From assembly GCA_021805825.1 (NCBI GenBank), contig JAJZEC010000019.1, forward strand, positions 1 through 55,253: a stretch of DNA of 55,253 bases, given 5' to 3'. A program made the translations under genes and the position numbers. The DNA comes from Pseudomonadota bacterium. Lineage in GTDB: Bacteria; Pseudomonadota; Gammaproteobacteria; Burkholderiales; Burkholderiaceae_C. Under the pieces are notes generated by a model that did not search any database, had not been told where the DNA came from, and was given only the letters and a program-made list of their open reading frames with translations. Of this stretch, positions 25,321-40,286 are shown piece after piece (the stretch's first letter is position 1; the number at the start of each line of letters is the position of its first letter).

Positions 25321-26208
25321 ATGCGCATCCGTGACCTGCTGCTGGCGCTGCTGGTGGTCGTCGTGTGGGGCAGCAACTTCATCGTGATGAAGCTGGGGGT
25401 CCACGACATCCCCCCGCTGTTCTTCGGCAGCATGCGTTTCGGCTTCGCCGCCCTCCCTCTGGTGCTGTGGCTGCGCCCGCCGAAGCTGCCCTTGCGCAAG
25501 GTGGCGGCCTGGGGGCTGACGCAGTTCGCGCTGCAGTTCGGCCTGCTGCTGAGCAGCCTGAAGCTGGGCATGCCGGCCGGGCTGGCCTCGCTGGTCATGC
25601 AATTGCAGGTCTTCTTCACCATTGCCCTGGCCTGGCTGGTGCTGCGTGAGCGCGCCCGCCCGGTGCAACTGCTCGGCGGGGCCATCGCGCTGGCCGGCAT
25701 GGCACTCGTGGCGTGGAACCTGCAGGCGCGCAGCACCCTGATCGGCTTTGTGATGGTGATGGCCGGCGCGCTGGCCTGGGCGGCGGCCAATGTGCTGTCC
25801 AAGCGCCTCGGAACCCCGCAGGCGCTGGCGCTGGCCGCCTGGGGTAGCTTGTTCGCCGCCCCGCCGCTGTTGCTCGCCTCGCTACTCTTCGAGGGCGCCG
25901 GCGCCGACCTGCACGCGTTGCACGCCATGGGCCTGGGGGCCTGGCTGGCGGTGGCCTTCCAGAGTTATCCGGCCACGCTGTTCGGCTTCGGGGTATGGTC
26001 GATGCTCATCCGTCGCTACCCGGCAGCGCAGGTCGCTCCCTTCACCCTGCTGGTGCCGATCAGCGGCATGCTCGGCGCGGCCCTGGTGCTGCACGAGCCC
26101 CTGCAGTCGTGGAAGCTTGGCGCCGGGGCGATGGTGCTGGTCGGCCTGGTGCTCAACCAGCTGCCGGCCCTGCGCCAGCGCTGGCGCGCCCGCGGCGTTT
26201 CTGTTTAG
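25321..26208 (+). CDS. EamA/DMT-family transporter
   Basis: The 295-residue protein has ten predicted helices in two EamA repeats. The first repeat opens LLLALLVVVVWGSNFIVMK; the second starts near LIGFVMVMAGALAWAAANV. It most resembles EamA/RhaT-type exporters of amino acids or small metabolites. It lies 39 bases after xth and 77 before the amidotransferase gene on the same strand, so it could be co-expressed with the 26-33 kb cluster and export its product; that link is inference. Confidence 0.85.
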   Translation: MRIRDLLLALLVVVVWGSNFIVMKLGVHDIPPLFFGSMRFGFAALPLVLWLRPPKLPLRKVAAWGLTQFALQFGLLLSSLKLGMPAGLASLVMQLQVFFTIALAWLVLRERARPVQLLGGAIALAGMALVAWNLQARSTLIGFVMVMAGALAWAAANVLSKRLGTPQALALAAWGSLFAAPPLLLASLLFEGAGADLHALHAMGLGAWLAVAFQSYPATLFGFGVWSMLIRRYPAAQVAPFTLLVPISGMLGAALVLHEPLQSWKLGAGAMVLVGLVLNQLPALRQRWRARGVSV

Positions 26209-26285: not shown

Positions 26286-28208
26286 ATGTGCGGGATCGCA
26301 GGTCTGCTGGATTTCCGGGACGCGCCTTCGGCGACGCTGGTTGGGGCGATGGTGCGGGCCTTGCATCACCGCGGGCCGGACGGCTCCGGGGTGCAGGACT
26401 GCGGGGCCGCCGTGCTCGGCCATTCCAGACTGGCGATCGTCGACCTCGAGGGGGGCGCCCAGCCCCTGTGCAACGAGGATGCCACGATCTGGGTCAGTTT
26501 CAACGGCGAGATCTACAACCACGAAGCATTGCGTGGCGAGCTGATCCGGCTCGGGCATGTGTTTCGCAGCCATTGCGATACCGAGGTGCTCGTGCATGCC
26601 TACGAGTCATGGGGCGACGACCTGGTGCGGCGGCTGGACGGCCAGTTCGCGTTCGCCCTGTGGGACGGCGGGCGCCAGCGCCTGCTGCTCGCGCGCGATC
26701 GCGTGGGCATTCGCCCGCTGTACCTGCGTCGTCATGGCCATTGCCTGGGCTTTGCCTCCGAGGTCAAGGCGCTGGCGGTGATGCCCGGTTGGAGCCCGCG
26801 CCTGGCCCCCGCAGTGCTGGCGGAGATCTTCACCACCTGGGCGCCGCTGCCGGGACACAGTGTGTTCGAGGGGGTACGAAGCCTCGAGCCCGGTTGCTGC
26901 CTGGCTGTCGACCGCCATGGCGAGCGCGGCTGGCGGTACTGGGACTGGGATTTCCCGGCGCGCGGGGACGACATGTCCGAGATCGGCGCCGACGAATGCG
27001 CCGCGCAATTGCTCGAGTGCCTGCAGCGCAGCGTCGCGCAACGCCTGCGCGCGGATGTCGCGGTCGGTGCCTACCTCAGCGGAGGGCTGGATTCGGCGGC
27101 AGTGGCTGCCCTGGTGCGCAGGCATGGGGTTCGCGGCCTGCGTACGTTCTCGATCCGCTTCGATGATCCCGAATTCGACGAAGGCGGGCCGCAGCAACTG
27201 CTGGTGCGCGAACTGGGTTGCGAGCACAGCGAGTGGCGTTGCAGCGATGCCGAGATCGCGGGCGCCTTCGCCAGCGCCGTCTGGCATGCCGAACATCCGA
27301 TGCTGCGCACGGCGCCGATTCCCATGATGCTTCTGGCCAGCCAGGTTCATGCCAGCGGCTACAAGGTCGTGCTGACGGGCGAAGGCGCCGACGAGGTGCT
27401 GGGAGGCTACGACCTGTTCAAGGAGGCGCGCGTGCGGCGTTTCATGGCGCGTGCCCCGCAGTCCGCGTGGCGCGGCGCCTTGCTGACGCGGCTCTATCCC
27501 TATCTGAGCCATTCGCCGACCGCGAACGCAGCGCTGGCCCAGCGCTTCTTCCGCGCCGAGCCGCAGCTGCTGCACCAGGCCGGTTACGGGCACCTGCTGC
27601 GCTGGCAGACCACCCAGCGCACCTGGCAACTCTTCTCCGAAGACCTGCGCAGTCGCCTGCGCCAGGAGGATGTGCAGGCCGGGGTGCAGCGCATGCTGCC
27701 GGCGCGCTTCGCGAGTTGGGCGCCCTTGCAGCAGGATCAGTACATCGAGGCATCGACACTGATGTCCGGCTACCTGCTGAGCACCCAGGGAGATCGCATG
27801 GCGATGGCCCATTCGGTCGAAGGACGCTTTCCCTTCCTCGATCACCACCTGATCGAATTTGCGGCACGCCTGCCGTCACGCTACAAGATCATGGGCCTGG
27901 CCGAGAAGTGGATTCTCAGGCGCGCGTTGCGCGGCCTGCTGCCGCACTCCGTGCTGAACCGCACCAAGCAGCCGTACCGCGCCCCGGACAGTCGTTGCTT
28001 CTTCCCGCAGGGCAGGGAACTGGAATGGGTTGCCGAGATCCTCAGCCCGGAGTCGCTGCGGCAAGCCGGCTACTTCGACGTCGATGCCGTGCAGCGCCTG
28101 CGCGCCAAGTGTCGTGCCGGGCGTGCCATCGGCTTCGCCGACAACATGGGTTTCGTCGGCGTGCTGTCCACCATGCTGCTGCAGCGACAGTTCGCTCGCG
28201 CCGGATAA
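26286..28208 (+). CDS. Asparagine-synthase-like glutamine-dependent amidotransferase
   Basis: The 640-residue two-domain protein has an N-terminal class II glutaminase domain with nucleophile Cys2 (MCGIAG), HRGPD and SFNGEIYNH. Its synthetase domain has the ATP-pyrophosphatase loop SGGLDS (265-270) and a GEGADEVLGGY segment. These enzymes adenylate a carboxylate and amidate it with ammonia from glutamine. Similar paralogues are common in polysaccharide, exosortase-A-associated and natural-product loci, where they modify substrates other than aspartate. Being first in a run with an acyl-AMP ligase, carrier protein and NAD-synthase homologue, a biosynthetic role is more likely than asparagine supply. 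No exosortase gene is in the window. Confidence 0.85.
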   Translation: MCGIAGLLDFRDAPSATLVGAMVRALHHRGPDGSGVQDCGAAVLGHSRLAIVDLEGGAQPLCNEDATIWVSFNGEIYNHEALRGELIRLGHVFRSHCDTEVLVHAYESWGDDLVRRLDGQFAFALWDGGRQRLLLARDRVGIRPLYLRRHGHCLGFASEVKALAVMPGWSPRLAPAVLAEIFTTWAPLPGHSVFEGVRSLEPGCCLAVDRHGERGWRYWDWDFPARGDDMSEIGADECAAQLLECLQRSVAQRLRADVAVGAYLSGGLDSAAVAALVRRHGVRGLRTFSIRFDDPEFDEGGPQQLLVRELGCEHSEWRCSDAEIAGAFASAVWHAEHPMLRTAPIPMMLLASQVHASGYKVVLTGEGADEVLGGYDLFKEARVRRFMARAPQSAWRGALLTRLYPYLSHSPTANAALAQRFFRAEPQLLHQAGYGHLLRWQTTQRTWQLFSEDLRSRLRQEDVQAGVQRMLPARFASWAPLQQDQYIEASTLMSGYLLSTQGDRMAMAHSVEGRFPFLDHHLIEFAARLPSRYKIMGLAEKWILRRALRGLLPHSVLNRTKQPYRAPDSRCFFPQGRELEWVAEILSPESLRQAGYFDVDAVQRLRAKCRAGRAIGFADNMGFVGVLSTMLLQRQFARAG

Positions 28209-28292
28209 GGCGCGGCAAATGGCGGCCATGCATTGCAAAATGCCTTCCCCGCCTGTTGTAAGCTGAAGGCTTCGCCAGTTTACGACCGGATC

Positions 28293-29834
28293 ATGCCGTA
28301 TCTGCTGCATCAAACGCTCGAGGTGCAAGTGCAACGCGTGCCGACCAGGACAGCCCTGGTGCGCGAGGGCAGAAGCAGCAGCTACTCTGACATCGATGCC
28401 CTGAGCCGTGCCATGGCGCGCAGCCTGTTGCAGCAGGGCATCGGCCGCGGCGACCGCGTGGCGCTGTTCCTGGACAACTCCGAGCAGCTGGTCGCCGCCT
28501 TGTATGCGGTGCTGCGCATCGGTGCCGTGTTCATGCCGGTGAACACCCTGACCAAGGCCGACAAGCTCGGCTACATGCTGGACGATGCGCAGGCCAGCGC
28601 GCTGGTAACCCAGCATGCCCTGGCCGAAGTGGCGCGGCAGGCGCTGCTGCTTGCGCCTTGCATCCGGGGCTGCTGGATGGTCGACGATGGACATCCACCG
28701 CCGCAGCCGCTGCCCGGCCAGTTGCCCTTCCCGCATGCAGACCTCGCTTCGCAGCAGCCGCTGGAGATCGCCACGCAGGGCATCGATCAGGATCTGGCCG
28801 CGCTGATCTACACCTCGGGTTCGACCGGTCGGCCCAAGGGCGTGATGCTCAGCCACCGCAACATGCTCAGCGCACTCCACTCCGTCAGCACCTACCTCGG
28901 GCTGCGCGAGGACGATGTCCTGGCCTGCGCCTTGCCGATGGCCTTCGACTACGGGCTGTACCAGGTGCTGATGGCCTTCGCGCTCGGCGCCACCGTGCTG
29001 CTGGAGCGCTCCTTCGCCTACCCGGCACGTGTACTGCAGAACATGGCCCGCGAGGGCGCCACGGTGTTCGCCGGCGTGCCCACCATGTTCGCGGTGCTGC
29101 TGGGCATGGATCTGCAGGCCTTCGACCTGGCTCGGTTGCGTCTGATCACCAATACCGCGGCGGCGCTGCCGGTCACCCACATCCAGCGCATCCGCAGCAT
29201 TTTCCCGCAGGCGCGCTTCTATTCGATGTATGGCCTCACCGAATGCAAGCGGGTCAGCTACCTGCCCCCGGAGCAGCTTGACCTGCGCCCGTCCAGCGTC
29301 GGGCGTGGCATGCCCAATGAGGAGCTCTGGCTGGTCGACGAGCAGGGGCGACGCCTGCCGCACGGCAGTACCGGGGAACTCGTCGTGCGCGGCAGCCATG
29401 TCATGCGCGGCTACTGGAACAAGCCAACGGAGACCGCCGAGCGCCTGCGCCCCGGGCCCCTGCCCGGGGAGATGGTGCTGTACACCGGCGATGTGTTTCG
29501 CAGCGATGCCGAAGGGTGGCTCTATTTCGTCGCGCGCAAGGACGACATCATCAAGAGCCGCGGCGAGAAGGTGAGCCCGCGCGAAGTCGAGAATGTGCTC
29601 CACGAAATCCCCGGTGTGCAGCAGGCGGCGGTGGTCGGTGTGCCCGATGCCTTGCTGGGTGAAGCGATCAAGGCCTTCGTCGTCGTCGCCGAAGGCTGTT
29701 CACTGGAGTCGCGCGCCGTGCTGCGGCACTGCCAGGCGCGACTCGAGAGTTTCATGGTTCCGCGCCAGGTGGAATTCGTTTCCGAGTTGCCTCAGACCGA
29801 CACCGGGAAGGTTCGCAGGGCTTCGTTGCAGTGA
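28293..29834 (+). CDS. Acyl-AMP ligase (AMP-forming acyl-CoA synthetase family)
   Basis: The 513-residue ANL-superfamily enzyme has the phosphate loop YTSGSTGRPKG (173-183), YGLTE (313-317), TGD near the hinge, and C-terminal catalytic Lys506 in TDTGKVRR. It activates a carboxylic acid as acyl-adenylate and passes it to a thiol. The N-terminus (LLHQTLE, RGDRVALFL, FMPVN) is reminiscent of ligases associated with exosortase-A polysaccharide loci. The acceptor is probably the carrier protein encoded 46 bases downstream. The acid substrate is not predictable by eye. It follows the amidotransferase gene by 84 bases. Confidence 0.88.
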   Translation: MPYLLHQTLEVQVQRVPTRTALVREGRSSSYSDIDALSRAMARSLLQQGIGRGDRVALFLDNSEQLVAALYAVLRIGAVFMPVNTLTKADKLGYMLDDAQASALVTQHALAEVARQALLLAPCIRGCWMVDDGHPPPQPLPGQLPFPHADLASQQPLEIATQGIDQDLAALIYTSGSTGRPKGVMLSHRNMLSALHSVSTYLGLREDDVLACALPMAFDYGLYQVLMAFALGATVLLERSFAYPARVLQNMAREGATVFAGVPTMFAVLLGMDLQAFDLARLRLITNTAAALPVTHIQRIRSIFPQARFYSMYGLTECKRVSYLPPEQLDLRPSSVGRGMPNEELWLVDEQGRRLPHGSTGELVVRGSHVMRGYWNKPTETAERLRPGPLPGEMVLYTGDVFRSDAEGWLYFVARKDDIIKSRGEKVSPREVENVLHEIPGVQQAAVVGVPDALLGEAIKAFVVVAEGCSLESRAVLRHCQARLESFMVPRQVEFVSELPQTDTGKVRRASLQ

Positions 29835-29879
29835 CAGGCGCAGCGAGGGCTCGGGTATCCAACGCAAGGGAAGATCGCC

Positions 29880-30146
29880 ATGTCCGACAGCATTCAGCAG
29901 AAGGTGCGCAGCTATATCCGCGAGAACTTCCTCCTCGGTTCGCAGGAAATCGCCTTTGGCGACGCCGACTCGCTGCTCGACAAGCATATTGTCGACTCGA
30001 CCGGAATCCTCGAGTTGATCCTGTATCTGGAGGAGAGTTTCGGGGTGCAGGTGCTCGATGACGAGATGGTTCCGGAGAATCTCGATTCGCTGGATGCCAT
30101 CGCCGCCTTCGTGGCGCGCAAGCAGCAGGCCAAGGCAGCGGCCTGA
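29880..30146 (+). CDS. Stand-alone acyl carrier protein
   Basis: The 88-residue acidic helical protein has the phosphopantetheine attachment motif as VDSTGILEL, with Ser40 the predicted modification site (DST instead of the usual DSL), and helix III residues DEMVPENLDSLDAI. It is distinct from a fatty-acid AcpP. It should hold the acyl group loaded by the upstream ligase for transfer or modification by the following enzymes. Only two bases separate it from the next gene. Confidence 0.88.
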   Translation: MSDSIQQKVRSYIRENFLLGSQEIAFGDADSLLDKHIVDSTGILELILYLEESFGVQVLDDEMVPENLDSLDAIAAFVARKQQAKAAA

Positions 30147-30148
30147 AC

Positions 30149-31138
30149 ATGGCGCATACCGAAATCTCGCCGCGCAGGCTTGAAATCGACTGCGACGCCG
30201 AGGTCGCGCGCATTGCGGAGTTCCTGCGCGCGAGCCTGGCGCGGATGCACAAGCGCGGTGTCGTGCTCGGTCTGTCGGGGGGCGTGGACAGCTCGGTCTG
30301 CGCCGCGCTTGCGGTGCGCGCGCTGGGCCCGCAGAGGGTGCTGGCGCTGTCGATGCCGGAGCGCGATTCGAGTGCCGATGGCCTGCGCCTTGCCGAAGAG
30401 GTGGCCGCGCAGCTGGGCATCCTCTGCGTGCAGGAGGACATCACCCCTGCCTTGCAGGCCCTGGGCTGCTACTCCCGCCGCGACGAGGCCGTGCGGGCTC
30501 TGCTGCCGGCCTACGACGAGCGGTGGAAGATCAAGCTGGCGATCGCCGAGGGCGCCGCGGGCCGCCTGCACTTCTTCGATCTCGTGGCCCGGGATCCCGA
30601 AGGCCGCATGCACCGCCGCAGGTTGCCGCTGCAGGCCTACCTGCGCATCGTCGCCGCGACCAATTTCAAGCAGCGTGTGCGCAAGAATCTCGAGTATTTC
30701 CACGCCGACAGCCTGAATCATGCCGTCCTCGGCACTCCGAATCGCCTTGAGTACGACCAGGGTTTCTTTGTCAAGAACGGCGATGGTGCCGCGGATCTGA
30801 AGCCCATTGCCCATTTGTACAAGAGCCAGGTCTATGCGCTGGCGCGCCACCTTGGTCTGCCGTCGGAGGTATGTGCCTCGAGCCCGACCACCGATACCTA
30901 CAGCCTGGCTCAGGGGCAGGATGAGTTCTATTTCGCGCTGCCATGGGCGCAGATGGATCTGGCGCTCTGGGCACGCAATCAGGACTTGCCGACGTCGTCG
31001 CTGGCGGAGGCACTGGGTCTGACGCCGCAGCAGGCTCAGGCGATCTACGCGGATATCGATGCCAAGCGCCGCAACGCGGCGTACCTGCACAGCCCGCCGC
31101 TGTGCATCGACGCTGGCCTGTCCGGGGTGCCGGCATGA
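30149..31138 (+). CDS. NAD-synthase-like ATP-pyrophosphatase (NadE paralogue)
   Basis: The 329-residue protein has the NadE hallmarks: LGLSGGVDSS (P-loop at 43-49), GTPNRLEYDQGFF, NGDGAADLKPI and YKSQVYALARHLGLP. Relative to ammonia-dependent NAD synthases it seems to carry an extra segment around residues 100-160. NadE adenylates a carboxylate and amidates it with ammonia; it lacks a glutaminase domain, so ammonia would be free or supplied by a partner. Its location between a carrier protein and a methyltransferase argues for a dedicated amidation step, but a true NAD synthase cannot be excluded from this window alone. Confidence 0.8.
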   Translation: MAHTEISPRRLEIDCDAEVARIAEFLRASLARMHKRGVVLGLSGGVDSSVCAALAVRALGPQRVLALSMPERDSSADGLRLAEEVAAQLGILCVQEDITPALQALGCYSRRDEAVRALLPAYDERWKIKLAIAEGAAGRLHFFDLVARDPEGRMHRRRLPLQAYLRIVAATNFKQRVRKNLEYFHADSLNHAVLGTPNRLEYDQGFFVKNGDGAADLKPIAHLYKSQVYALARHLGLPSEVCASSPTTDTYSLAQGQDEFYFALPWAQMDLALWARNQDLPTSSLAEALGLTPQQAQAIYADIDAKRRNAAYLHSPPLCIDAGLSGVPA

Positions 31139-32055
31139 TCGTCGGAGGGGTGCAGTGGGAGCAGCGCCTGCGCAGGCTCGAGCAGGGGCTGCGCACGCTG
31201 CCTGATAAGCCCGAGGAAAGTCCGCAGGCGGCGCTGCGCGCCTTGTGGTTTCTCGCCGCTGGCACCAGGCTCTCGGTCCAGGCGGCGGCCGAACGACAAC
31301 CGCCGCAACTCGATGCGGCGCAGTTGCAGGCGCTCGACGCCTGGATCGATCGCCGGCTGCAGGGGGAGCCCCTGGCCTACCTGCTCGAGCGCCAGGGCTT
31401 CATGGGGCTGGAATTGCTGTGCGGCCCGGTGGCGCTGATCCCGCGCCGGGAAACCGAGATGCTGGGCCAGGCAGCGGTGGCCCTGCTGCGCGAGGCGGCA
31501 CAGTCCGGGCACGAGCCCTGCTGCATCGACGTGTGTTGCGGCAGCGGAAACCTCGCGCTGGCGGTGGCCCATGCCGTGCCGACGGCCCGCGTGCATGCCA
31601 GCGACCTGTCGCCGCAGGCTCTGCAGCTGGCAGCGGCCAACGTCGCTCGGCTCGGGCTGCAATCCCGGGTGCAACTGCACGAGGGCGACCTGCTGGCGCC
31701 GTTCGACGGTGCGCAATGGTCCGCGAGCGTCGACCTGCTGCTGTCGGCGCCGCCCTATATTTCGAGTGCGCGCATGGAGGCGCTGCCGTCCGAGATCATC
31801 TCCCACGAGCCGGCCATGGCTTTCGATGGCGGGCCCTTCGGCATCGATATGCTCATGCGCCTGCTGCGCCGGGCCCCGCGACTGCTTCGCGCCGGGGGAT
31901 GGCTGTGCGTGGAAGTCGGTCTGGGACAAGGCCCGGCGATGGGCAGGTTGGCGCGTGGCGATGCGCGGTACTCCGAGGTGCGCATGGTTCTTGATGAACA
32001 GGGCAACGAACGGGTGCTGCTGGCGCGGCGGGCAGCCGCGGGCTCAGATGCCTGA
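31135..32055 (+). CDS. PrmC/HemK-like SAM-dependent methyltransferase with altered catalytic motif
   Basis: The 306-residue protein has the PrmC layout: an N-terminal helical region, then GEPLAYLLERQGFMGLEL and IPRRETEML, SAM-binding motif I VCCGSGN (133-139) and the motif IV position SAPPYIS (205-208). In PrmC and other N-methyltransferases motif IV is NPPY; here the Asn that contacts the target nitrogen is Ala. SAM binding looks intact, so it may methylate a different group (oxygen or carbon) or a different substrate from release factors. Its ATG overlaps the NadE-like stop (ATGA), tying it to the cluster. Confidence 0.8.
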   Translation: MIVGGVQWEQRLRRLEQGLRTLPDKPEESPQAALRALWFLAAGTRLSVQAAAERQPPQLDAAQLQALDAWIDRRLQGEPLAYLLERQGFMGLELLCGPVALIPRRETEMLGQAAVALLREAAQSGHEPCCIDVCCGSGNLALAVAHAVPTARVHASDLSPQALQLAAANVARLGLQSRVQLHEGDLLAPFDGAQWSASVDLLLSAPPYISSARMEALPSEIISHEPAMAFDGGPFGIDMLMRLLRRAPRLLRAGGWLCVEVGLGQGPAMGRLARGDARYSEVRMVLDEQGNERVLLARRAAAGSDA

Positions 32056-33124
32056 GCGCGGCGCCGATGCGGGCTACGGAGTCGACGCCGCATGCCTGCC
32101 GGACGACGCGCCCGCGGTCGTGCGACTGTGGGGAGAGGCCCTCGGGCGCGTCGAGAAGAGGCAGCAGAAGCTGCAATGGTTCTACGCGCATCCGGGGCGC
32201 GAGCGAGCACGCCTGTTCGTATTGCGGCACACCGGAGAGATCGTCGGCGCCACGGGAATCGGGCCGCGATCGCTGTGGTGGCGCGGCAGTTCCGTCGATG
32301 CCGCGCTGATGGGTGACTTCGCGGTTGCGTCCCGGCACCGCACGCTGTACCCGGCCATGCTGCTTCAGCGCTCGACACTCCAGCAAGGCCTGCAGGAGTA
32401 CGCCTTGCTGTACGGCTTTCCCAACGCGCGCTCGCTGCCGGTGGTGCGGCGCGTCGGCTACCAGGTGCTCCCCGGCATGGCCCGCTACGCGCGCATGCTG
32501 CGCAGCTCCTTCTACCTGCCGTCCTTCTGGCCGGCAGCGCTGCGCCGCGCGGGTGGCGCGCTGCTGGATCGGCTGCTCGGGCTGCGGCACGCGCTGGCTC
32601 TGATGCTCCCGCGCCGGGGGCTGCACACGGCGTGGCTGCATGAACCCGATGCACGCTTCGACGCCTTGTGGCTGCGGCTGCGCGAGCAGGTGGGCGACTG
32701 CGTGATCGGCGTGCGCGACTGTGCGCTCCTGCGTTGGCGTTTCCCTTCGCACACTGCGCGCCAGCCGCGGTTCTTCGTGCTGAGTGACCGCCAGGGGGAG
32801 CGCTTGCTCGGCTACGCGGTGTGCCAGCCGAATGCACAGGCCTCGGCGCTGCAGATCCTCGACCTGCTGGTCGACGCGCCAAGCCCGGCTTGCGTGGCCA
32901 GGCTGCTGCGACTGCTCGCCGAGACGGCGCGCGCGCAGGGCTACCGCAGCCTGTCCGTGCAGTGCGGCGGCCCGGACTGGTTGCTCGCCGGGGTGCGGGC
33001 GGCCGGCCTCGTGCCGCGCCAGAGCACGCAGAGGGAGCCGATGATCCTGGCCCTGGCGCCGGGCATGCCGCAAGAGATGGCCACCGTCGGGTGGTACCTC
33101 AGCTACGCCGATACCGACGAGTAG
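32048..33124 (+). CDS. GNAT-superfamily protein with two GNAT-like halves
   Basis: The 358-residue protein has an N-terminal acetyltransferase-like half, visible as LFVLRHTGEIVGATGIG, LMGDFAVASRHR and YGFPNARSLPVVRRVGY, and a C-terminal half repeating the pattern (RFFVLSDRQGERLLGYAV, ILDLLV, then a GNAT-like RSLSVQCGG strand). Such enzymes transfer acyl groups to amines. It overlaps the methyltransferase gene by 8 bases and is the last gene of the run. With a ligase and carrier protein upstream it is the obvious candidate for the acyl-transfer step. Its 3' end overlaps the convergent hydrogenase gene by 26 bases. Confidence 0.7.
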   Translation: MPERGADAGYGVDAACLPDDAPAVVRLWGEALGRVEKRQQKLQWFYAHPGRERARLFVLRHTGEIVGATGIGPRSLWWRGSSVDAALMGDFAVASRHRTLYPAMLLQRSTLQQGLQEYALLYGFPNARSLPVVRRVGYQVLPGMARYARMLRSSFYLPSFWPAALRRAGGALLDRLLGLRHALALMLPRRGLHTAWLHEPDARFDALWLRLREQVGDCVIGVRDCALLRWRFPSHTARQPRFFVLSDRQGERLLGYAVCQPNAQASALQILDLLVDAPSPACVARLLRLLAETARAQGYRSLSVQCGGPDWLLAGVRAAGLVPRQSTQREPMILALAPGMPQEMATVGWYLSYADTDE

Positions 33125-34454
33125 CCGCCGCATCGGCCGCGGCGCGCCGGGGATCCTGCCAGGCTTCGGCGGGCAGCCTGCGCAGGCGCAGCATGTGCGT
33201 GGCGCAGGAGATGCAGGGATCGTGGTTGCGGATGGCCTGCTCGCAGCGCTGGCGCAGCACCTCGTCGGGTTGCTGCAGCAGCGAGGTGGCGAGCAGGGCC
33301 AGGTCGGCCTCGATCGAGGCCTGGTTCTGCGCGGTCGGCGGCACGATGTCGGCGCGCTCGATGCTGCCGTCGGCGGCGAAGGCGTAGTGGTGCCAGCAGA
33401 TGCCGCGTGGAGCTTCGGTGCAGCCGAAACCCTCGGCGGCGCGCGGCACGACCGTGGCCGCCGGCTGCGTCGGGGGTTGCCAGGCGTCGAGCAGGCGGAG
33501 CGCCTCCTCGCAGGCATAGGCGATCTCGATGGCGCGAACGAGGATCGAGCGGAAGGGGTTGCGGCACACGGGGCCGAGCCCGGCCTGCAGCGCGCGCCGT
33601 TGCAGTCCCCCGGGCAGGCGCTCGAAGTTCAGCGCGTAGCGCGCCAGCGGGCCGACGAGATAGGCGCCGCGACCGCGCAGCATCGATTGCAGCGCGGTGG
33701 AATGTTCGACCTGCCGTTCCTCGAAGGCGTCGCGGTAGTCGGCGATGTCGATGTCCAGGCCGCCGCTCGAGCACAGCCTGCCTTCGGTGATCGGATATTC
33801 CTCGGGGTGCCGCAGCGCGACGAATTCATAGTCGCGCTCGAAGTCCGGAACATCCAGCCGCGCCACGCGATCGAGCAGTACGTCGGCTTGCGCGCGTGCC
33901 TCCTCCAGGGTGCTGCGCAGTGCGCCCAGTGCCTGCGCCTGCGGCAGCGCGTGCACGCCTCCGGCGCGCAGGCACACCGGATGGATCTCGCGCCCGCCGA
34001 TGACGCGCAGAATCTGCCCGCCGGCCGATTTCAGTGCCATCGCGGTGCGCAGCCACTCGGGCTGCTGCGCGGCCAGGGCGAGCGCGTCGGGCAGGCCCAG
34101 GAAGTCCGGCGCATGCAGCAACCCCACATGCAGTGCGTGGCTGCTCATCCATTCGCCGCAGTACAGCAGCCGGCGCAGAGCGCGCAGCGCGGGGTCGATG
34201 CGTACGCCGAAGGCCTGCTCCACCGCCTGCACCGCGCTCATCTGGTAAGCCACCGGGCAGATGCCGCACACGCGCGAGACGATGTCGGGCAGCTCCTCAT
34301 GGTCGCGCCCGCGCAGCAGCGCCTCGAAGAACCGTGGTGGCTCGAAGATACGCAGCCGCGCATGCTCCACGCGATCGCCGCGGATGAGCAGCTCCAGCGC
34401 GCCTTCGCCTTCGACGCGCGTGAGGTAATCGACTTCAATCTTCCGGCGAGGCAT
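33099..34454 (-). CDS. [NiFe] hydrogenase large (alpha) subunit, group 3b type
   Basis: The 451-residue large subunit has both nickel-ligating motifs: RVCGICPVAYQMS (Cys63, Cys66) and DPCISCATH (Cys414, Cys417). Their wording fits cytoplasmic NAD(P)-linked group 3b enzymes (sulfhydrogenase/HydA type). It holds the NiFe(CN)2CO centre. ATG 34454 is chosen as the conserved start RKIEVDYLTRVEGEG. A 31-residue tail follows the last motif and would be a candidate for maturation-protease removal. It overlaps the delta-subunit gene by 20 bases and the opposing GNAT gene by 26. Confidence 0.92.
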   Translation of the reverse strand: MPRRKIEVDYLTRVEGEGALELLIRGDRVEHARLRIFEPPRFFEALLRGRDHEELPDIVSRVCGICPVAYQMSAVQAVEQAFGVRIDPALRALRRLLYCGEWMSSHALHVGLLHAPDFLGLPDALALAAQQPEWLRTAMALKSAGGQILRVIGGREIHPVCLRAGGVHALPQAQALGALRSTLEEARAQADVLLDRVARLDVPDFERDYEFVALRHPEEYPITEGRLCSSGGLDIDIADYRDAFEERQVEHSTALQSMLRGRGAYLVGPLARYALNFERLPGGLQRRALQAGLGPVCRNPFRSILVRAIEIAYACEEALRLLDAWQPPTQPAATVVPRAAEGFGCTEAPRGICWHHYAFAADGSIERADIVPPTAQNQASIEADLALLATSLLQQPDEVLRQRCEQAIRNHDPCISCATHMLRLRRLPAEAWQDPRRAAADAAATRRYRRS

Positions 34455-35205
34455 GGGCGTCAGCCGGCAGGGGTACGACATGGATGGAGTGCAGCGCCAG
34501 GCGCAGGCGCCGCGGCGAGGCGCCCAGGCGCAGCCACTGCGCGGCCAGCGCGGAGGTGGACGCATCGGGCAGCGGGCCGAAGCAGCCGTAGCAGCCGCGT
34601 CGCAGCCCCGGGCACAGCGCGCCGCAGCCGGCATGGATGATCGGCCCCAGGCAGGGTTCGCCCTGCACCATGACGCACACGTGGCCGGCGACCTTGCAGT
34701 CCATGCACACACTGCCGCCTGCAGGCTCGGCCCGGCGCCCGGCGAGCAGCGCGGCGAGCAACTGCTGCAGCTGTCCGGCGTCGACCGGGCAGCCCTGCAG
34801 TGCATGATCGACCTGCACATGCGCATGCAGCGGGGTCGCGGTGGGCAGGCTGTGCAGCCACTGCGGCCGCGGGTAGACGGCGCGCTCCCAGGCCTGCGCA
34901 TCGTCCGGGTTGCGCAGGGCCTGGATGCCGCCGCCGGTGGCGCAGGCGCCGATGGCCACCAGCAGGCCTGACTGTTCGCGCACGCGCTGCAGGCGCTGCA
35001 CGTCTGCGGTGGTGCTGACCGAGCCTTCCACCAGGGAGATGTCGTAGGGCCCGTCGCGCATGCTGCTCGAGGCTTCAGCGAAGTAGGCGATGTCCATCGC
35101 CTGCGCCATCTGCAGCAGATCGCCGTGGCTGGCCAGCAGCGACAGCTGGCAGCCGTCGCAGGAAGAGAACTTCCAGACCGCGAGGCGTGGGCGGACCGCG
35201 GACAT
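34435..35205 (-). CDS. [NiFe] hydrogenase small (delta) subunit
   Basis: The 256-residue small subunit has FSSCDGCQ (Cys16, Cys19), EGS, IGACATGGG and GCP for the proximal FeS cluster, plus a C-terminal cysteine-rich part GCGALCPGLRRGCYGCFGP for further clusters. It relays electrons from the active site to the beta and gamma subunits. It has no signal peptide, in keeping with a cytoplasmic enzyme. It sits one base after the gamma-subunit gene. Confidence 0.92.
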   Translation of the reverse strand: MSAVRPRLAVWKFSSCDGCQLSLLASHGDLLQMAQAMDIAYFAEASSSMRDGPYDISLVEGSVSTTADVQRLQRVREQSGLLVAIGACATGGGIQALRNPDDAQAWERAVYPRPQWLHSLPTATPLHAHVQVDHALQGCPVDAGQLQQLLAALLAGRRAEPAGGSVCMDCKVAGHVCVMVQGEPCLGPIIHAGCGALCPGLRRGCYGCFGPLPDASTSALAAQWLRLGASPRRLRLALHSIHVVPLPADAHASPED

Positions 35206-35206
35206 G

Positions 35207-36064
35207 TCAGATCTGCGGCCAGGGCAGCAGCCCGGCCAGGCGTTGCAGGCTCATGACCGGGCCGTCGCGGCAGACAAAGGCAGGCCCGAGCTGGCAGTGT
35301 CCGCACAGTCCGATGCCACACTGCATGTTGCGCTCCATCGACGCATGGATGTCCCTGTCGGCCAGCCCGGCCGCACGCAGCGCGCCGGCGCAGGCGCGCA
35401 TCATCGGTTCCGGGCCGCACAGCATGGCCACGCTGCGCGCGGGGGCGAGGTCGATGGTGTCGAGCAACGCCGTGACCACGCCGACATGTCCGCGCCAGGC
35501 GGCATCGGCGCGATCCACCGTGCACTCCACCCGCACCCCGGGCAGCGCAGCCCATGCGCGCAGGTCCTCCGCCCACAGCTGCTGCGCGGGCGAGCGCGCT
35601 CCGGTCAGCAGCGTGATGCGGCCGTACTGCGCGCGCGCGGCGAGCGCCGCTTCCAGCGCCGGGCGCAGCGGCGCCAGGCCAAGCCCGCCGGCGATGAGCA
35701 GCAGGTCGCGCCCGCGTGCCCGTTCCAGCGGCCAGCCATGGCCGAAGGGGCCGCGCACACCCAGCATCGCCCCCGGAGCCAGCGCGGCCAGCGCGCGGCT
35801 GACCGGGCCGACGGCGCGGATGGCATGCAGTCGTCCGTCGCCCCGGGCGCCGCTGATCGAAATGGCGGCCTCGCCGACACCGAAGGCGTAGAGCATGTGG
35901 AATTGCCCGGGTGCGAAGCAAGGCAGGGTGCCGTCGGCCGCCTCCAGCTCCAGGCTCACGGTGTCGTCGAGCTCGCGCCGGGTGCTGCGCACGCGCGCCA
36001 GTCGCGGCCGCATCGGCTCTGCCGCCGCGGGTCGCTGGGCTGCCTGTGGTTCAGCGCTCGACAT
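35207..36064 (-). CDS. Hydrogenase gamma subunit, FAD/NAD(P)-binding diaphorase
   Basis: The 285-residue ferredoxin-reductase-like protein has an FAD-binding barrel (APGQFHMLYAFGVGE), an NAD(P)-binding region with LIAGGLGLAPLRP and CGPEPMM, and a C-terminal [2Fe-2S] site with Cys249, Cys254, Cys257 and Cys265. It exchanges electrons between NAD(P)H and the FeS chain. It overlaps the beta gene by 14 bases. Confidence 0.92.
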   Translation of the reverse strand: MSSAEPQAAQRPAAAEPMRPRLARVRSTRRELDDTVSLELEAADGTLPCFAPGQFHMLYAFGVGEAAISISGARGDGRLHAIRAVGPVSRALAALAPGAMLGVRGPFGHGWPLERARGRDLLLIAGGLGLAPLRPALEAALAARAQYGRITLLTGARSPAQQLWAEDLRAWAALPGVRVECTVDRADAAWRGHVGVVTALLDTIDLAPARSVAMLCGPEPMMRACAGALRAAGLADRDIHASMERNMQCGIGLCGHCQLGPAFVCRDGPVMSLQRLAGLLPWPQI

Positions 36065-38522: not shown

Positions 38523-40286
38523 ATGTCCTCCCCGCCCGATCTTCCACTGACGCCTTCCCGCGACCCCCGTGCCCGCGCCTGGCTGCAATCCTTCGTGCCC
38601 GGCTTGCGGGCGCCGTTGCGCGGCGCCGTCGCGCTGGCCAGCGTGTCCGGCGTGCTGGTGGTGGCGCAGGCGCTGGTGCTCGCACGGGTGGGCGCGGCCG
38701 CCGTCGACGGGCGTTTCGAAGCCGCGGCGCAGTTGCCGTGGCTGCTGGCTTTGCTGCCGCTGTTCGCGCTGCGCTTCCTGCTCGTGCGGGCTGCCGAGCG
38801 TGTGGCCTTCGGCGCCGGCGCCGCGTTGCGCCAGCGCCTGCGCGTCGATCTGCTGCGCCGGTTGCAGGCCATGGGGACGCCGTGGTTGCAGCAGCAGCAG
38901 CGCGGCGACCTGCTCAATACCCTGGTCAATGGCATCGAGGCGCTGGAAGCGTATTTCGCGCGCTACCTGCCGGCCGCGCGCACCACCGCGCTGGTGCCGG
39001 CCGCGATCCTCGTGGCGGTGGCCTTCGTCGACCGCCAGTCGGCCGCCATCCTGTTGTGCACCGCTCCGCTGATTCCGCTGTTCATGTGGCTGATCGGGCG
39101 CGGTGCCGAGGACTTGAACCAGCAGCAGTGGCTGCGCCTGGCGCGCCTGTCGGCACGCTTCCTCGATGCCCTGCAGGGCTTGAGCACCCTGCGCCTGCTG
39201 GGGGCGAGCCGGCGCGAGGCTGCGGTGGTGGAGCAGGTTTCGGAGGACTATCGCGCGGCCACCATGCGCGTGCTGCGGGTGGCTTTCCTGTCCGCGGTGG
39301 TGCTGGAATTCCTGGCCACGCTGAGCATCGCCATGATCGCCGTGTGGATCGGTTTCCGGCTGTTGTGGGGGCAGATGCACTTCGCGCAGGGCTTTTTCGT
39401 GCTGCTGCTGGCGCCGGAGTACTACGCCCCGCTGCGCGCGCTGGGCGGTGTCTACCACCTGCGCATGGACGCGCTGGCCGCGGCGCAGCGCATGCACGCG
39501 CTGTTCGAGCTGGAGCCCGAGCCAGCGCGCCAGGGGCTGGTTCTGCCGCCCCGGCATGCGCCGGGGATCGTGCTGCGCGACGTGCACTACCGGCATGAGG
39601 ACGGTCGCCAGGCCCTGTGCGGCTGCGACCTGCGGATCGCGCCGGGGCAGGTGACCGCGCTGGTCGGCGCCAGCGGCGCCGGCAAGAGCAGTCTGCTGCA
39701 CCTGTTGCTCGGGGGATCCGCGCCGCAGCGCGGGAGCATCGAGATCGACGGCCGCGATCTCGGCGCCTTCGACTCCCGCCAATGGTTGCAGCAACTGGTG
39801 CTGCTTCCGCAACGCCCGCGGCTGTTCGCCGCCAGCATCGCCGACAACCTGCGGCTGGCCAGGCCCGATGCCGATACGGCAGCCTTGCGCGAGGCGCTGC
39901 GCATGGCCTGTGCCGACGAATTCGTTGATCGCCTTGCGCAGGGCCTGGACACCCTGGTCGGCGAGCGCGGCGCCGGGCTGTCGCAGGGCCAGCAGCAGCG
40001 CCTGGCACTGGCACGCCTGCTGCTGCGCGACCCCGCGCTGGTGCTGCTCGACGAGCCCACCGCCAGCCTCGACGGCGTCCTGCAGCAGCGCCTGCTGCCA
40101 TCGCTGGCATCATGGCTGCGTGGGCGCACCGTGCTGCTGGTGGCGCATCGCCTGCGCACCCTGGATCTGGCGCAGCAGGTCGTCGTGCTGGATCGCGGCC
40201 GGGTCGTCGAACAGGGAACGGCGCAGCAGCTGGCCGCTGCCGGTGGCGCTTTCGCGCGCCTGCTGCGCGCGCAGGAGCTGGCATGA
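38523..40286 (+). CDS. cydD: Cysteine/glutathione ABC exporter subunit CydD
   Basis: The 587-residue fused ABC exporter half-transporter has six helices, then an ATPase with Walker A GASGAGKSSL, signature LSQGQQQRLALAR and Walker B LVLLDEPTASLD. CydDC exports reductant thiols and is required for cytochrome bd assembly. It overlaps cydC by 4 bases (ATGA) and is convergent with the cydAB genes. No clear ribosome-binding site precedes ATG 38523. Confidence 0.92.
   Translation: MSSPPDLPLTPSRDPRARAWLQSFVPGLRAPLRGAVALASVSGVLVVAQALVLARVGAAAVDGRFEAAAQLPWLLALLPLFALRFLLVRAAERVAFGAGAALRQRLRVDLLRRLQAMGTPWLQQQQRGDLLNTLVNGIEALEAYFARYLPAARTTALVPAAILVAVAFVDRQSAAILLCTAPLIPLFMWLIGRGAEDLNQQQWLRLARLSARFLDALQGLSTLRLLGASRREAAVVEQVSEDYRAATMRVLRVAFLSAVVLEFLATLSIAMIAVWIGFRLLWGQMHFAQGFFVLLLAPEYYAPLRALGGVYHLRMDALAAAQRMHALFELEPEPARQGLVLPPRHAPGIVLRDVHYRHEDGRQALCGCDLRIAPGQVTALVGASGAGKSSLLHLLLGGSAPQRGSIEIDGRDLGAFDSRQWLQQLVLLPQRPRLFAASIADNLRLARPDADTAALREALRMACADEFVDRLAQGLDTLVGERGAGLSQGQQQRLALARLLLRDPALVLLDEPTASLDGVLQQRLLPSLASWLRGRTVLLVAHRLRTLDLAQQVVVLDRGRVVEQGTAQQLAAAGGAFARLLRAQELA

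Follow-up and report, generated by a model that had tools for sequence, protein, structure and literature searches.

An apparently undescribed bacterial gene module joining an acid ligase and carrier protein to AsnB-type and NadE-like enzymes

Stand-alone adenylation and carrier pairs of the DltA/DltC type place a ligase, with the binding-pocket Asp of nonribosomal peptide synthetases (NRPSs), beside a small carrier protein. A ligase (TIGR03098) and an amidotransferase (TIGR03108) also occur in the XrtA/PEP-CTERM exopolysaccharide module, and a related AsnB-type amidotransferase (AsnO type, TIGR03104) belongs to the N-acetylglutaminylglutamine amide pathway. A published account mentions two asparagine synthetase genes in a floc-forming exopolysaccharide cluster of other bacteria (PMC9012009). 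Here we analyzed a 55,253-nt stretch of DNA (hereafter, the window) from a Pseudomonadota bacterium of the Burkholderiaceae_C (contig JAJZEC010000019.1 of assembly GCA_021805825.1), focusing on six genes at 26286-33124 on the plus strand. This cluster looks like a stand-alone adenylation and carrier pair plus two amidating enzymes. The DltA/DltC type is among its closest known counterparts, from which the cluster differs by the two amidating enzymes, a methyltransferase and a GNAT acyltransferase.

The first gene (26286..28208, 640 amino acids (aa)) encodes an asnB-like glutamine-hydrolysing amidotransferase with glutaminase and adenylating synthetase domains (PF00733, PF13537). The protein exceeds the cut-off of TIGR01536 (480 vs 267 bits) and contains the motifs MCGIAG (glutaminase Cys), SGGLDS (ATP loop) and GEGADE, which place it in the asparagine synthetase B family, and it falls below the cut-offs of TIGR03108 (401 vs 817) and TIGR03104 (384 vs 570). 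The stand-alone adenylating ligase (28293..29834, 513 aa from ATG, with an alternative TTG start possible at 28233) has an AMP-binding and a C-terminal domain and the motif YTSGSTGRPKG. Its best family is TIGR03098 (471 bits, below the cut-off of 592), and at 291 bits it also stays below the cut-off of TIGR01733 (317) and so does not qualify as an NRPS adenylation domain. The carrier protein (29880..30146, 88 aa) has its phosphopantetheine Ser in IVDSTG, and the DSTG motif was found again in relatives. It passed no NCBIfam cut-off (best NF052616, 54.5 vs 130 bits), and its Pfam PP-binding match is weak (E 0.05, below the Pfam cut-off). The remaining genes encode a NadE-like ATP-dependent amidase (30149..31138, 329 aa, NF002048/PRK00876), a HemK/PrmC-like methyltransferase (31135..32055, 306 aa, TIGR03534) and a tandem GNAT acyltransferase (32048..33124, 358 aa, PF13527).

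All six reading frames are intact and run in the same direction. The gaps are 84 bp between asnB and the ligase gene, 45 bp between the ligase and carrier genes and 2 bp between the carrier and NadE-like genes, followed by overlaps of 4 bp (NadE-like and PrmC-like) and 8 bp (PrmC-like and GNAT). Judged by this spacing, the six genes appear packed as in a single operon. A preliminary description of this DNA had proposed the same six families, genes two bases apart or overlapping from the carrier onward, and complete catalytic motifs in the ligase, AsnB, NadE-like protein and carrier, and all of this was borne out by the frames and translations. A promoter scan gave 0 promoter-like sites against 0.6 in shuffled sequences, and its 7 terminator-like sites compare with 3.5 after shuffling (standard deviation 2.0); both results are uninformative.

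To reveal how far this gene set is conserved, genome contigs were searched with the NadE-like protein, which gave at least 575 relatives, and the best 80 were kept (L004-L083), a set in which near kin are over-represented. Most of these 80 adjoin a ligase and a carrier gene, and most of those adjoin AsnB too. For sampling that is independent of the neighbors, we took every genome with NF002048 over its cut-off from a phylum and a family sample, namely 15 of 398 Pseudomonadota genomes and 11 of 150 genomes of the family (the window's own included in both). One further genome was common to both samples, leaving 23 other genomes, from which stretches of 11-20 kb were fetched. A ligase gene lies beside the NF002048 gene in 23/23 of these genomes, a carrier gene in 23/23 and an AsnB gene in 21/23. 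Across all 106 loci examined, 102 have the ligase and 100 the carrier; the misses fall in six loci, five of which end at a contig edge. The sixth (L076, in a planctomycete-labeled bin) keeps the NadE-like gene, yet its 20.9 kb gave no match to the ligase, carrier or AsnB; it is the sole such case with full context.

As controls, we used 20 stretches of 20 kb from elsewhere in 19 of the sampled genomes; their positions were arbitrary and hand-picked, on the contigs that also hold the clusters. The carrier, AsnB, NadE, PrmC and GNAT models matched 0/20 and the ligase model 3/20 of these stretches, with control matches taken at E 1e-8 and the loci scored by bit scores or tblastn. The core-gene models, like the polysaccharide models used below, were built from L004-L083. 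Three sampled loci duplicate contigs of the first set (L159=L039, L160=L022, L163=L017); they were removed from the Asp/methyltransferase and motif IV counts and retained in the counts of co-occurrence, the 106 loci, polysaccharide genes, ligase-motif readings and GNAT C-termini. The six genes form a conserved, dedicated module, and the possibility raised in the preliminary description, that homologs of these genes never co-occur in other genomes, falls away. The module is apparently widespread in bacteria and undescribed: a full-text search of the open literature, with subscription papers and preprints outside its scope, found no paper describing the gene set. NadE-like relatives occur in 116 plasmid records, and relatives are present on plasmids of well-studied rhizobia. 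On pSymB of Sinorhizobium meliloti AK57 (L168), the AsnB and ligase genes seem split into several frames, from either sequencing error or decay, and the carrier and NadE-like genes each match in one frame.

The NadE-like protein passes NF002048 (472 bits, cut-off 313), a family named NAD(+) synthase, and carries the ATP loop SGGVDSS. In one alignment, we compared 107 members of the NadE-like family with ordinary NadE proteins (13 sequences). Both groups share the ATP loop and many further residues, for example N172, R176, R178, E201, K209, D212, D216 and K225 (window numbering). Positions K179, V208 and T250 are each fixed in both groups, but as different residues. The NadE-like proteins also have an insert at about residues 106-160 with its own invariant or near-invariant residues Y108, W126, K129 and G152, and the predicted model (predicted local distance difference test, pLDDT, 86.1) places extra strands there. 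The best 50 solved-structure matches listed for this model are all NAD or NMN synthetases. A further NAD synthase match over the cut-off was found in 24/24 carrier genomes, the window's included, where it lies on contig C110; in two genomes (G167 and G282) the match is narrow (67 vs 63.65 bits).

The NadE-like protein was therefore rejected as its genome's only candidate NAD synthase, given the copy on C110 and the extra match in all 24 genomes. It is likely not the cell's NAD synthase, and because all 24 genomes have another one, the family name of NF002048 is probably a misannotation. The shared residues, the NAD/NMN synthetase fold of the predicted model and the separate insert suggest that carboxylate adenylation and attack by ammonia are probably kept in this enzyme, with a probable change of substrate. 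The AsnB gene likewise is not the only one of its type in the genome, as a second AsnB-type enzyme is encoded on contig C80 (29394-31748; TIGR03108, 477 bits, below the cut-off). The concern in the preliminary description that the cluster might simply hold the organism's sole asparagine synthetase and NAD synthase is thus not borne out; either of the two AsnB-type enzymes, or neither, may make asparagine. The C80 gene lies near a sugar-phosphate transferase gene, perhaps in a separate glycan locus.

The substrate of the ligase was approached through its acid-pocket motif, which is FDYGLYQ (Asp type) in the window and aligns by its FD with the FD of linear gramicidin synthetase. In NRPSs, the pocket Asp (D235 in GrsA) holds the substrate's amino group, as does the FD Asp of linear gramicidin synthetase. 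A reading of the pocket by eye pointed to no substrate. Some relatives share the Asp, many have Ser, Ala, Gly or Asn there and one has Thr; in view of this variation, the Asp was not accepted as proof of an amino-acid substrate.

The Asp coincides with the presence of the methyltransferase gene. Among loci flanked by 7 kb or more on each side, after removal of the three duplicates, 28 have both, 2 the Asp only (L080 and L135), 0 the methyltransferase only and 38 neither. This pattern was first spotted in L004-L083. In 23 later loci, for which methyltransferase presence was already known and the ligase motifs had not yet been seen, the counts are 12, 1, 0 and 10 (p 1e-5, hand count), or 10, 1, 0 and 10 when restricted to full context. 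Mapped onto the NadE tree, the Asp state switches 13 times and the methyltransferase 11 times, with no independent pair going in opposite directions. The Asp ligases do not form a single clade on the ligase tree (5 changes, a single clade rejected). Both trees are quick builds with long branches flagged. Taken together, these sequence comparisons make a real link between the Asp and the methyltransferase likely, and the methyltransferase would belong to a form of the pathway whose acid carries an amino group.

Further adenylating enzymes were seen near some relatives and elsewhere in the window's genome. In three loci of one genus (L125, L130 and L132), an adenylation-thioesterase protein of 911-930 aa adjoins the NadE-like gene. 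These proteins gave no carrier-domain match and might serve to activate a second acid; two other loci of the genus (L128 and L129) are without them. Contig C52 of the window's genome (7456-36675 and 59278) combines a sugar-phosphate transferase gene with several adenylation-domain matches in long frames (1663-2733 aa) that probably belong to NRPS genes.

The methyltransferase passes TIGR03534, a family of PrmC/HemK glutamine-amide N-methyltransferases, narrowly (205.6 vs 199.1 bits). It differs from them in that its genome has a better PrmC match on contig C16 (251 bits), and it was thereby rejected as the genome's only PrmC candidate; a better PrmC lies elsewhere in 9/9 genomes tested. The Asn of the usual NPPY motif IV has a role in PrmC/HemK enzymes, and the window's protein has APPY. 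Among 46 methyltransferases of the cluster (duplicates removed), motif IV is NPPY in 25, including L030 by alignment, APPY in 12, LPPY in 8 and undetermined in 1. An AsnB gene is present in 18/18 NPPY and 8/9 APPY loci with enough context, and none is nearby in 8/8 LPPY loci (6 with enough context to tell). This pattern would fit a methyltransferase whose substrate is the amide that AsnB produces. Most LPPY cases, however, come from Thiomonas-labeled relatives, and the LPPY cases may represent a single event.

The last gene product matches PF13527 in Pfam and no NCBIfam family. Its predicted model (pLDDT 93.5) is a tandem GNAT fold. The structures most like it are N-myristoyltransferase and acetyltransferases such as Eis, with 8-16% identity among the 50 matches listed. 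An acidic C-terminal end is also shared with these enzymes: the window's protein ends in DTDE, and a D-x-D stretch lies within the last residues of 41/41 relatives examined. The C-terminal carboxylate serves as the base in N-myristoyltransferase. A protein of about 370 aa without a family match adjoins the cluster in three plasmid loci (L169-L171) and in sampled loci including L128 and L129, and a profile of six such proteins is a remote relative of the GNAT (hhalign probability 95.8%, E 7e-9). This remote version is seen in some plasmid and alphaproteobacterial loci.

Our first choice, held tentatively, is that the module builds a carrier-bound amidated acyl (or aminoacyl) group and transfers it to an amine. 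The ligase would adenylate an acid and load it as a thioester on the carrier phosphopantetheine, with Asp-type ligases such as the window's taking an amino-bearing acid and the Ser, Ala, Gly and Asn types taking acids without an amino group. AsnB, using ammonia from glutamine, and the NadE-like enzyme, using free ammonia, may each adenylate a further carboxylate and convert it to a carboxamide. In Asp-type loci, the HemK/PrmC-like enzyme would modify the product, most simply by N-methylation of the amide or amine. In the last step, the tandem GNAT would hand the completed group to an amine; for many relatives, this amine may be an amino sugar in a surface polysaccharide. The chemical steps, their order, the acid and the acceptor are all what we infer from the enzyme families and their neighborhoods.

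Support for a surface acceptor comes from the surroundings of relatives. Models of seven polysaccharide gene families gave at least one match in 33/61 loci of the first set (those longer than 14 kb), 9/14 of the phylum sample and 1/9 of the family sample. Polysaccharide genes lie near 10/23 sampled loci vs 0/20 controls (p 7e-4; the duplicate L159 is among the 10). In a Pfam tally of the sampled neighbors, which covered 122 of 130 proteins, glycosyltransferases and sugar transferases are among the most frequent families, with 3-4 members each, as are thioesterases (4), RTX repeats (3) and a helix-turn-helix family (3). Seven loci (L032, L042, L047, L052, L057, L059 and L074) carry some of the genes for ketoacyl-ACP synthase III, a short-chain dehydrogenase, a second carrier and another GNAT, the dehydrogenase and carrier being called by eye. 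These look like genes of acyl-group synthesis for sugar decoration.

Several observations weigh against this first choice. The seven polysaccharide models found no match in the window's whole 55 kb, and in its own family only one locus of the nine has any. The polysaccharide models also matched both of two further stretches of this genome, which had been chosen for their AsnB and NadE genes rather than as random controls. AsnB is absent in 7 of 71 full-context loci. The GNAT was detectable by sequence in part of the loci only, and because GNATs usually use acyl-CoA, its transfer from the carrier is a guess. Corrected for relatedness, the Asp/methyltransferase link has too few pairs for significance, both on supported branches of the NadE tree (about 5 same, 0 opposite, 1 tie, p 0.0625) and on the ligase tree (4 pairs, p 0.125). 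Lastly, judged by its motif, the APPY of the window's methyltransferase weakens the case for methylation by this copy. The chemistry suggested in the preliminary description, in which an acid is activated on the carrier, amidated and/or methylated and moved to an amine by the GNAT, accordingly gains from the operon-like packing and the conservation of the unit and loses in its methylation step here.

A strong rival, quite possible in our view and ranked second, is that these enzymes instead produce a small molecule in free form, such as an amidated amino acid or short peptide serving for example as an osmolyte or signal, with no polysaccharide involved. We keep it as such because the clusters of the window's own family lie mostly away from polysaccharide genes, with no match in the window nor in eight of those nine loci. 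An EamA-family exporter gene (25321..26208, plus strand, PF00892), which ends 77 bp upstream of asnB, may export the product. In L004-L006, the three nearest relatives, an EamA gene likewise precedes asnB at a distance of about 0.9 kb. The AsnB is kin to the N-acetylglutaminylglutamine amidotransferase, at 384 bits below the cut-off of 570. That amide pathway is not known to involve a ligase, a carrier or a NadE-like enzyme. The adenylation-thioesterase proteins beside the NadE-like gene in L125, L130 and L132 would also suit a free product. The free-product reading is opposed by the enrichment of polysaccharide genes in the wider sample. In addition, EamA is not a general neighbor of the cluster: none lies upstream in the remaining loci of the first set, the best 80 of at least 575 relatives, and whether the exporter is part of the unit is uncertain.

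The cluster could also be an XrtA/PEP-CTERM exopolysaccharide module that lacks its exosortase, which we consider improbable. The enzyme types are the same, TIGR03098 being the best family of the ligase and TIGR03108 the second of AsnB, and the surroundings of relatives are partly the same. In the two relatives tested (L043 and L029), the neighbors include XrtA-type genes for a sugar transferase, chain length, export or a deacetylase that exceed the cut-offs of their families, and other loci share these gene clusters. However, the ligase (471 of 592 bits) and AsnB (401 of 817) are far under these cut-offs, the cluster has a NadE-like partner, and exosortase (PF09721) is absent in 15 of the 24 carrier genomes, the window's among them, and present in 9. 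One genome (G461) has a true TIGR03098 ligase (784 bits) in addition to the cluster's own (480 bits), and this true XrtA ligase is 37% identical to the window's, with the pocket motif FDAGFSQ. Membership in the XrtA module was rejected on the cut-offs, the genome without exosortase and the separate paralogs of G461. The absence of an exosortase gene, reported earlier for the window, therefore extends to the whole genome. The accompanying remark that the cluster matches no nameable pathway needs qualifying, as relatives sit inside exopolysaccharide loci, in L043 and L029 with XrtA-type genes; the ligase and AsnB themselves are only distant kin of the XrtA enzymes.

It is equally improbable that the NadE-like protein is, as annotated, an accessory NAD synthase that supplies or amidates a pyridine compound within the cluster. 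The NF002048 score, the retained catalytic-type residues common with normal NadE and the NAD or NMN synthetases among its best 50 listed fold matches would all agree with this. Against it stand the second NAD synthase match in all 24 genomes, the insert with its own invariant residues and the three differently fixed positions. The constant partners of the gene, moreover, are the ligase and carrier (each 23/23) and AsnB. A NadE-fold enzyme with another main substrate has been described in the Francisella NMN synthetase (PMC3376133), a precedent for such a change. An adjacency of the six genes by chance can practically be dismissed, as the co-occurrence in 23 sampled genomes and over 106 loci is set against control stretches in which five of the six models found nothing.

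Whichever product is made, these results flag a recurring family named NAD(+) synthase whose members probably do not serve as the cell's NAD synthase, and they define a compact pathway whose product can be sought. The coupling of the pocket Asp to the methyltransferase gives a concrete prediction of the substrate class. A broader and more doubtful version of the amide-transfer proposal would make NF002048, to judge by the literature searched, the first NadE-fold amidase found in a carrier-protein pathway, under a wrong family name. In this version, the pathway would have two forms set by the ligase-pocket residue, Asp for an amino-bearing acid and Ser, Ala, Gly or Asn for one without, with the HemK/PrmC-like enzyme confined to the Asp form, and its products would be N-methylated amides or amines on surface glycans in several classes of Proteobacteria.

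Downstream of the cluster, a frame on the minus strand (33099-35921) that matches NiFe-hydrogenase (PF00374) overlaps the 3' end of the GNAT gene, and a small-subunit-like match (PF01058) lies on the same strand at 34435-35205. Further on, an ABC transporter gene (38523-40286) resembles cydD by eye.

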